From Capsulimonadaceae bacterium (GTDB lineage Bacteria > Armatimonadota > Armatimonadia > Armatimonadales > Capsulimonadaceae): DNA of 64,000 nt. Under the pieces are notes generated by a model. It did not search any database, was not told the origin of the DNA, and saw only the letters and a list, made by a program, of their open reading frames with translations. Within the stretch, counting starts at the first letter, position 1. Each line of letters starts with the position of its first letter. A program made the translations under genes and the position numbers. Below, in pieces: positions 31,646 through 44,529 of the stretch. Location: assembly GCA_031292625.1 (NCBI GenBank), contig JARLGU010000034.1, forward strand, positions 29,572-93,571, read 5' to 3'.

Positions 31646-31659
31646 GCATTCCGCTTGAG
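31646..31659. repeat. Left 14-bp direct repeat flanking insertion 1
   Basis: GCATTCCGCTTGAG, repeated exactly at 31874-31887. Together they bracket the 214 bp containing core copy 1. It reads as a target-site duplication. Confidence 0.75.
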
Positions 31660-31873
31660 GGATCTATTCACATCAACGATTGTCACCGATATTGGCGCGG
31701 ATTGCGGCCGTGAACGACCGTCCCGAGATGTCAATTCCCATCATTGGGGCCGCCGGATCACGAAAATGCTGGACGTCTACCGATTAGGCCCGTTAACGGG
31801 CTTTCTCAACACAGGACGGCCCTTACAGGACCGGACTCGTGCCGCTGTTAACAGTTATATACGCGACTGCCCT
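31660..31873 (+). mobile_element. Short non-coding element, copy 1 (core 31666-31859)
   Basis: A 214-bp insert between 14-bp direct repeats. Its 194-bp core (31666-31859) matches the reverse complement of 44301-44494 at about 174 of 194 positions without gaps. It has no reading frame and no evident terminal inverted repeats. Internal palindromes include GCCCGTTAACGGGC followed by TTTCTC (terminator-like) and CTGTTAACAG near the right end. The core ends about 75 bp before the start of the metalloprotease gene, so it forms most of that gene's upstream region. I do not recognise the family. A structured RNA that moves, or a transposon-derived miniature element, would both fit. Confidence 0.7.
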
Positions 31874-31887
31874 GCATTCCGCTTGAG
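31874..31887. repeat. Right 14-bp direct repeat flanking insertion 1
   Basis: Second exact copy of GCATTCCGCTTGAG. The bases outside the two copies differ, so the match stops at 14 bp. Confidence 0.75.
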
Positions 31888-31933
31888 TCCGCCTTGCGCG
31901 CGGAACGAAGCCGTGGTAATGTAGAGTACGATT

Positions 31934-32605
31934 ATGTTCTACCAAGCGCGTTCACCTTATATCGCTTTGATCTGGCTGCTCGCGGCCGTATTCATTGCCG
32001 CGGCAACGCCTCGCGCGGATGCGGATCTAGCGATCCAGGGCGGATCACAGGCGCAGCAACAGTTGCTTCGACAAATCTTTACGAGCCGGATTCCAGCTCC
32101 GTTGAGGCAGGGCGCGACGCTGTTCGTTAACATACTGACCGACCGGCAAATGAACGCATACATCCATTACGGCAACAGCGCGCATATGTCGAGCAACGAT
32201 GCCGCCGATGCGATCGACGGGATCTTCGAGGATGGACCGCCGACCATCACGTTGCGCGGCGCAACGGACCAATGCGCCCTGCCATTTACGTTTGTCCACG
32301 AGTTCGGGCACTTCTTTTGGCAAAACGGGCTTACGAAAACGGATCGAAGCCGGTACGGCGAAGTATACTCTAAGCAGAAAAGGGCGCATAGCCTGATCAC
32401 CGAATACGCCGCAACCGATGTCCATGAGGGTTTCGCGGAGGCGTTTTCATACTACATATTGTCTAAGACGACTCTGCGACATCGCGATCCGCTGTCCTGC
32501 GCGTATCTCGACAACGTCTTCGGGCGAGTTGGCAATGCAAGCCAGCCAGTCGTTAGAGTCTCGCAACATGTATCCAGCAAGTTATACGCGTCGCCAGGCG
32601 GATGA
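31934..32605 (+). CDS. Secreted zinc metalloprotease-like protein (HEFGH)
   Basis: A 223-residue protein with an N-terminal signal or anchor (about 9-30, ending PRADA). The zincin motif is FTFVHEFGHFFWQNG (His122, Glu123, His126). A second acidic motif, VHEGFAEAFSYYIL (Glu165/Glu169), could supply the third zinc ligand as in gluzincins. The compact domain and absence of other domains resemble small toxin-like or housekeeping zincins, but no named family is certain. It lies directly downstream of mobile copy 1, which may affect its expression. The acetyltransferase gene follows after 24 bp. Confidence 0.75.
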   Translation: MFYQARSPYIALIWLLAAVFIAAATPRADADLAIQGGSQAQQQLLRQIFTSRIPAPLRQGATLFVNILTDRQMNAYIHYGNSAHMSSNDAADAIDGIFEDGPPTITLRGATDQCALPFTFVHEFGHFFWQNGLTKTDRSRYGEVYSKQKRAHSLITEYAATDVHEGFAEAFSYYILSKTTLRHRDPLSCAYLDNVFGRVGNASQPVVRVSQHVSSKLYASPGG

Positions 32606-44182: not shown

Positions 44183-44278
44183 CCGGCCGGACAAAGCAAG
44201 CGCAGGCGCGGGACGGATCGCCCTCAAGGCCTGTTAGCCGTTATACCTCGCACAGCTCCGAATTGGCCACACTCGACA

Positions 44279-44297
44279 ACAAACAAACGGGCAACGC
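44279..44297. repeat. Left 19-bp direct repeat flanking insertion 2
   Basis: ACAAACAAACGGGCAACGC, repeated exactly at 44511-44529. The two copies bracket the 213 bp carrying core copy 2. Confidence 0.85.
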
Positions 44298-44510
44298 ATC
44301 TATGACTGTTAACAGCGGCGCGAGTCCGGTACTGAAAGGGCCGGCCTCTGTTGAGAAAGCCCGTGAACGGGCCTAATCGGTAGACGGCCAGCACTTTCGT
44401 GAGCCGGCAGCCCGATTGATGGGGATTGACATCTCAGGACGGTCGTTCACGGCCGGAAACCACGCCAATATCGGTGACAATCGTCGATATGAATGGCTGC
44501 GATCGCCCTG
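44298..44510 (-). mobile_element. Short non-coding element, copy 2 (core 44301-44494)
   Basis: A 213-bp insert between 19-bp direct repeats. Its core, read on the minus strand, is about 90% identical to copy 1 over 194 bp with no gaps; about half of the 20 differences are transitions. GCCCGTGAACGGGC is the counterpart of the copy 1 palindrome. The flanks between core and direct repeat (3 bp on one side, 16 bp on the other) are not shared in position with copy 1. There is no reading frame. It lies in the gap upstream of pgeF, and the right-hand direct repeat ends 28 bp before the pgeF start. Confidence 0.72.
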
Positions 44511-44529
44511 ACAAACAAACGGGCAACGC
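44511..44529. repeat. Right 19-bp direct repeat flanking insertion 2
   Basis: Second exact copy of ACAAACAAACGGGCAACGC, 28 bp before the pgeF start codon. An uninterrupted site would contain it once. Confidence 0.85.

Follow-up and report, generated by a model that had tools for sequence, protein, structure and literature searches.

An ISAs1-type MITE family in an Armatimonadota genome, with copies phased to predicted promoters and direct repeats that run into an end look-alike

What kind of element leaves a non-coding insertion between two copies of a 19-bp direct repeat? The question arises in the window (by which we mean the whole stretch of 64,000 nucleotides of Capsulimonadaceae DNA that was analysed), where ACAAACAAACGGGCAACGC occurs exactly at 44279-44297 and at 44511-44529 and at no other site with three or fewer mismatches. 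By chance, 0.03 matches are expected, and none of 100 shuffles gave two. An earlier note, made from the letters of the sequence, saw here the footprint of an inserted mobile element with a long target duplication, without a reading frame and with a second, inverted copy of its core elsewhere in the window. The bracketing repeat and the inverted copy are both borne out, the latter lying at 31666-31872 with 183 of 207 positions identical and one gap. The nature of the element and the meaning of the long repeat turned out otherwise, once the remaining copies were considered.

The genome containing the window is a 5.77-Mb assembly of 65 contigs, in which the core has at least 41 matches at 88-100% identity (40 of 75 candidates were scored). 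In this respect the earlier note is supported: the insertion is the footprint of a dispersed, non-coding mobile element with a direct repeat. Core matches together with copies found through the inverted repeat gave 52 distinct aligned stretches, of which 40 are close to full length. A consensus built from 35 copies measures 225 bp, and the mean pairwise identity is 88%. The consensus ends in 18-bp inverted repeats, CAGGGCGATCGCATCTAT, and most copies begin with that sequence or a close variant and finish with its reverse complement, contrary to the impression from the single copy that clear terminal inverted repeats were missing, unlike usual MITEs. The terminal pattern gives 76 hits with up to three mismatches and its reversed control gives 3. 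The lack of a reading frame holds for the family: the consensus has no coding capacity, its longest stop-to-stop frame being 49 codons. A scan of the window against Rfam gave no match at the gathering score, and the z value of the element folded as RNA (-2.19) is not counted as evidence for RNA function. Short, non-coding, and provided with terminal inverted repeats and target-site duplications, the element is a MITE. The earlier note had proposed a search of the genome and of its relatives. Many copies are present at home; the core is absent from the other 100 genomes in a set of 101, none of those listed being of the same genus.

Other forms of the element were seen in the same genome. Four loci (L061, L024, L065 and L074) have a common alternative right end, in which ATTAG/ATGAA is followed by ACCGGGTAGCC or ACCGATCC. 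Three further divergent copies, with 82-84% identity and all in one orientation, lie at C17:900-8000 (L076), in a region whose ORFs resemble phage structural genes by eye. A perfect MITE inverted repeat on contig C33 (L073, 3061-3078) has no MITE interior adjoining it. At two contig ends, C10:1-300 and C55:79970-80367, copies stand in tandem with the flanking repeat, either as true arrays or as effects of assembly.

Placed in the register of the consensus by alignment of the copies, the given copy occupies 225 bp, 44286-44510 on the forward strand. Its right inverted repeat (44493-44510, reverse strand; C64:74064-74081) agrees with the consensus at 16 of 18 bases, with 2 mismatches. The left one (44286-44303, forward strand) is eroded, reading AACGGGCAACGCATCTAT where the consensus has CAGGGCGATCGCATCTAT, and the first 12 bp or so of the copy are target-like. 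On the left, the 19-bp repeat (44279-44297, forward strand) comprises the target duplication plus a stretch that stands where the outer part of the left inverted repeat would be, and on the right (44511-44529, forward strand) it comprises the duplication followed by sequence like the end of the element. Of the 19 bp, about 7-10 are target and 9-12 replace the outer inverted repeat.

This arrangement recurs. Forty-four copies have an intact left side, and 32 of these carry a direct repeat. In 22 of the 32, the ordinary class, the repeat stops at the edge of the element and is 8-15 bp long (one mismatch allowed), most commonly 10. In the other 10, the given copy among them, the repeat begins near the usual place but is 7-16 bp longer, extending over positions that the left inverted repeat would normally occupy. 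It is this extended class that accounts for the 19 bp of the given copy. When the 12 bp following the right duplication are compared with the inverted repeat, they agree on average at 7.3 of 12 positions in the extended class and at 2.95 of 12 in the ordinary class (p 7e-6), and in the seven copies tested the look-alike matches solely at the exact register. One member of the extended class, L027, has the look-alike at the right and a canonical left end. The second copy in the window (31660-31874, reverse strand) has a truncated right inverted repeat and is flanked by CTCAAGCGGAATGC at 31874-31887 on its left side, the last base of the repeat being the first base of the element, and at 31646-31659 on its right side (both on the reverse strand). 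Next to it, at 31934-32605 on the forward strand, is an ORF of 223 aa with a sub-threshold match to PF07737 of Pfam (22.9 bits, cut-off 27.4), probably a mere metalloprotease-like resemblance.

How do the long repeats come about? The listing of repeat lengths that the earlier note had called for did find a long class, 10 of 32, but the ordinary 8-15 bp prevail, so that junctions with a long repeat are in the minority. The suggestion that had been drawn from the given copy, of an element that lacks inverted repeats and whose target duplications are long as a rule (IS1634-like, or a target-primed retroelement), can point to that copy and to nine others in which the repeat extends into the left end; with inverted repeats in the consensus and duplications of about 10 bp in 22 of 32 copies, it is ruled out for the family as a whole, and we give it next to no credence. 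We infer instead that the long repeats originate from targets that look like the end of the element. According to this model, a look-alike 10 bp from the cut would make a favoured target and could assume the role of the left end, so that repeats of 19-24 bp would arise where the target carries such a sequence right after the 10-bp site. The look-alike would then replace the left end, perhaps through a template switch during repair. The same geometry is seen in an Anaerolineae genome, where exactly 10 bp separate the end of an ISAs1 element (L257, 276-1501) from a MITE whose end is of the same type. Alternatively, the long repeats may post-date an ordinary 10-bp insertion, through tandem duplication and later deletion or through conversion that copies sequence of the right flank into the left end. 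The tandem copies at the ends of C10 and C55 speak for such events, as does L027, whose look-alike lies on the right although its left end is canonical. Against them, in 10 of 32 copies the look-alike stands exactly in register and in the other 22 it does not, the flanks listed hold no remnant of a second element beyond the look-alike, and random deletions would be expected to leave longer remnants as well. A later origin is a possibility to be taken seriously, but we consider it doubtful.

Since a MITE encodes nothing, the transposase that moves it must be sought through its ends and duplications. These resemble, in sequence and in length, those of ISAs1 elements. Among 29 loci fetched, five of the phylum (L180, L181, L184, L185 and L186) have CAGGGCRAWCGCA ends, and three of the five have exact 10-bp repeats. 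Named ISAs1 members on plasmids have CAGGG ends. Exact 10-bp repeats flank 12 of the first 16 plasmid loci, and 24 of the 34 distinct sites on plasmids show repeats of 10-11 bp. In the Anaerolineae genome, a continuous ISAs1 transposase match lies between CAGGGTAATCGCATCTAA and CAGGGCAATCGCATCTAA ends, and the MITE that this element adjoins is related to L141. The own genome contains relics of ISAs1, five matches that all fall below the cut-off, and no intact ISAs1 gene. Two of the relics, at C12:5232-6107 and C26:5157-5348, are spread over several frames and are possibly the remains of the partner of the MITE, although a look at their surroundings turned up no inverted repeats that match. No autonomous relative with the same ends was found in the own assembly, and tblastn of the regions around unpaired inverted repeats (L071-L080, on C10, C33, C32, C6, C17, C43, C61, C5 and C16) revealed no ISAs1- or ISKra4-like stretch. 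The full-length relative that the earlier note had proposed to look for was not found at home; elsewhere, there are ISAs1 elements with very similar ends.

Such ends are found beyond the phylum. A scan for CAGGGCRATCGCATCTAT in a collection with one genome per species gave 58 stretches, and for seven of these a partner end and a direct repeat were recognised. One of the seven, in Desulfobacula sp. S2_67, represents a large family of its own, with at least 53 matches (40 of 75 candidates scored). Ten pairs from this genome have a repeat of 8-11 bp in six cases, one of 18 bp in a single case (L228, an extended repeat), and none in three. A 1.5-kb variant in this family (L234) was considered as an autonomous element and rejected, as it has no ORF above 150 aa. 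Because ISAs1 is represented by mere relics in the Armatimonadota genome and no ISAs1 transposase was found in the Desulfobacula assembly, the transposase family is assigned from the ends and from the length of the duplication. On these grounds, an ISAs1-family DDE transposase likely moves the MITE in trans, and we would predict that an autonomous partner, when met, has CAGGGCGATCGCATCTA ends and an ISAs1 transposase.

The copies of the MITE are also unusual in where they lie. For 21 of 44 copies, where 2.7 would be expected (p 1e-14), the best sigma70-like promoter predicted outward of the left end has its -35 box at 17-20 bp; about half of the copies are not phased in this way. Promoters are sequence predictions throughout this work. 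Every other 4-bp bin of distance from the left end to a -35 box holds at most 4 copies, and the right end has a -35 box at 17-20 bp in 4 of 38 flanks. Some of the predicted promoters are near perfect, such as TTGACA-17-TATGAT at L002 and TTGACT-18-TATAAT at L006. Over the 20 strong cases, the standard deviation of the distance is 1.0 bp to the -35 box and 1.1 bp to the -10 box; since the two vary equally little, either box may be the one that is read. Phasing is found in 14 of the 22 copies with ordinary duplications and in 5 of the 12 without a direct repeat. The extended class is phased less often: 4 of 10 copies have a -35 box within 16-20 bp, 2 of them within 17-20 bp. The given copy is itself a poor example: its predicted promoter (44240-44269, reverse strand), directed outward from the left end, has a -10 box GTTATA/TATAAC at 44240-44245 and a weak -35 box TGGCCA at 44264-44269, the offset being 16 and so off by one. 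The second copy has a predicted weak promoter at 31894-31922 on the forward strand (TTGCGC-17-TAATGT, offset 19), likewise directed outward from its left end.

The phasing is replicated in the Desulfobacula family, which belongs to another phylum. There it is the right end that faces promoters: 10 of 21 sites have a -35 box 17-20 bp from it (p 1e-7), and the left end is phased in 4 of 18 (p 0.02). In other genomes, phasing is seen in 3 of 4 paired MITEs and in 4 of 11 unpaired ends that are non-coding. The four pairs are what is left of the seven after removal of one that lies in a coding stretch (L124) and two from Desulfobacula that were counted separately (L125 and L151), and the set of 11 excludes the Hormoscilla repeats L127, L132 and L153, the mutually alike Nostoc loci L138, L145 and L166, further loci of Desulfobacula S2_67, and every end within a long open frame. 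ISAs1 insertion sequences were assessed as well. Fifty-five plasmid loci, less 9 without recognisable ends and 12 sharing a flank, gave 34 sites, which with 8 loci from the phylum make 42. Thirteen of the 42 are phased at either end, where 4.9 are expected (p 8e-4), and six of the 13 have a good promoter score; the ends of these sites were called by rule, and a few (e.g., L276) may be wrong. The weakness of this signal may mean that the promoter property is confined to a sub-branch of ISAs1 or that MITEs have been enriched by selection. A passage of one study reports that ISAs1 is over-represented between convergent genes (PMC9208149), which speaks against a promoter preference throughout the family.

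Two other explanations must be weighed against the view that an ISAs1-type transposase chooses these targets. A preference for promoters calls to mind Mutator-type (p-MULT) transposases. As described in part of the literature (PMC3942029), two groups of them, TnGBS/ISLre2 (p-MULT 3) and ISKra4 (p-MULT 4), are promoter seekers that go in, always in the same orientation, upstream of the -35 box of sigmaA promoters, with direct repeats of 8-9 bp and 15-17 bp to the -35 box. The partner of the MITE might then be such an enzyme, e.g., ISKra4 or ISLre2, and a candidate is at hand. While a PF00872 profile search of the own genome gave nothing, PF06782 has one match there, an intact ISKra4-family transposase at C30:2341-3654 (L082; 437 aa, 238.6 bits, cut-off 205). 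It is intact, yet its element has different ends, GGGTGTGAA, and a 9-bp repeat, CCTCCACGA (by eye), and the candidate was rejected. ISKra4 copies in related genomes have GGGTGYG-like ends where these were recognised (L083, L085 and L112), and the 8-9 bp given for p-MULT repeats in the part of PMC3942029 cited differ from the roughly 10 bp of the MITE. Insertion upstream of -35 boxes, seen in 21 of 44 left flanks, is therefore a behaviour shared with p-MULT 3 and 4 and not a mark of membership, the duplications and the inverted repeat being unlike theirs when compared with the ISKra4 ends of the phylum; a Mutator-type partner is very unlikely.

The other explanation is selection after insertion, by which the MITE would be a mobile upstream regulatory module or insulator, kept where it stands at one distance from a promoter. 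Interrupting genes is costly, so surviving copies are biased toward intergenic DNA, and this counts in favor of selection. So does the strong phasing of MITEs when ISAs1 insertion sequences are phased so weakly. On the other side are the single sharp distance and single orientation in two unrelated families. Also, phasing does not grow with age, as 14 of 22 copies that keep their duplications are phased against 5 of 12 without a repeat. We regard selection as an unlikely source of the phasing, though with less assurance than in the case of a Mutator-type partner, and infer that the phasing reflects the choice of target at insertion. The simplest route to phased insertion would be contact, either with RNA polymerase bound at the promoter or with the DNA of the promoter itself.

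Taken together, these considerations make it probable that the element is a 225-bp MITE with 18-bp ends and duplications mostly of about 10 bp, likely moved by an ISAs1-family transposase, with about half of the copies of the MITE phased to predicted promoters through promoter-guided insertion. A broader proposal, which we put forward tentatively and believe somewhat less than we doubt, is that a branch of ISAs1 independently evolved polymerase-guided transposition to sigma70 promoters, together with a second mode of targeting, at look-alikes, that yields 19-24-bp repeats. Among the titles and abstract openings listed in searches of open-licence papers, we found no report of ISAs1 insertion upstream of promoters. 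If the reading is true, a new family joins the very short list of transposons believed to target promoters, and if insertion is indeed aimed, promoter targeting arose in a bacterial DDE transposase family beyond the Mutator type. Aimed insertion would also suggest that promoters share an accessible feature, at about -45 to -55, on which elements can land, and for which RNA polymerase, the sigma factor and the region of the alpha C-terminal domain are candidates. So compact an element, 225 bp with 18-bp ends, makes the idea testable. Elements of this sort gather just upstream of promoters and leave genes unbroken; they could alter the regulation of many genes at once.

Compared with known systems, the element is like bacterial MITEs in general in being short and non-coding, with inverted repeats, target duplications and many copies, and differs from them in its promoter phasing and in the junctions where the repeat runs into an end look-alike. 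With TnGBS/ISLre2 and ISKra4, as portrayed in the cited part of PMC3942029, it shares insertion in one orientation and at a constant spacing upstream of a sigma70-type -35 box; it departs from them in its inverted repeats, in duplications of 10 rather than 8-9 bp, and in a distance to the -35 box of 17-20 rather than 15-17 bp. The closest likeness is to ISAs1 (NF033564; ISAsp2, ISVa13, ISAzs12, ISAs12, ISAeme1 and ISCysp8), whose inverted repeats are of the CAGGG type, with CAGGGCRAWCGCATCTAA in several members, and whose target duplications are 10 bp, as in the MITE. Inverted repeats and a 10-bp duplication of the ISAs1 kind are found in the MITE. At 225 bp it has no gene, and it is phased far more strongly than the 42 ISAs1 sites. 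Since an ISAs1 insertion sequence carries its transposase gene within the element, this one is classed as an ISAs1-type MITE and not as an ISAs1 insertion sequence. Two of its traits are notable: its promoter phasing, found in two unrelated families, and its repeats into an end look-alike.
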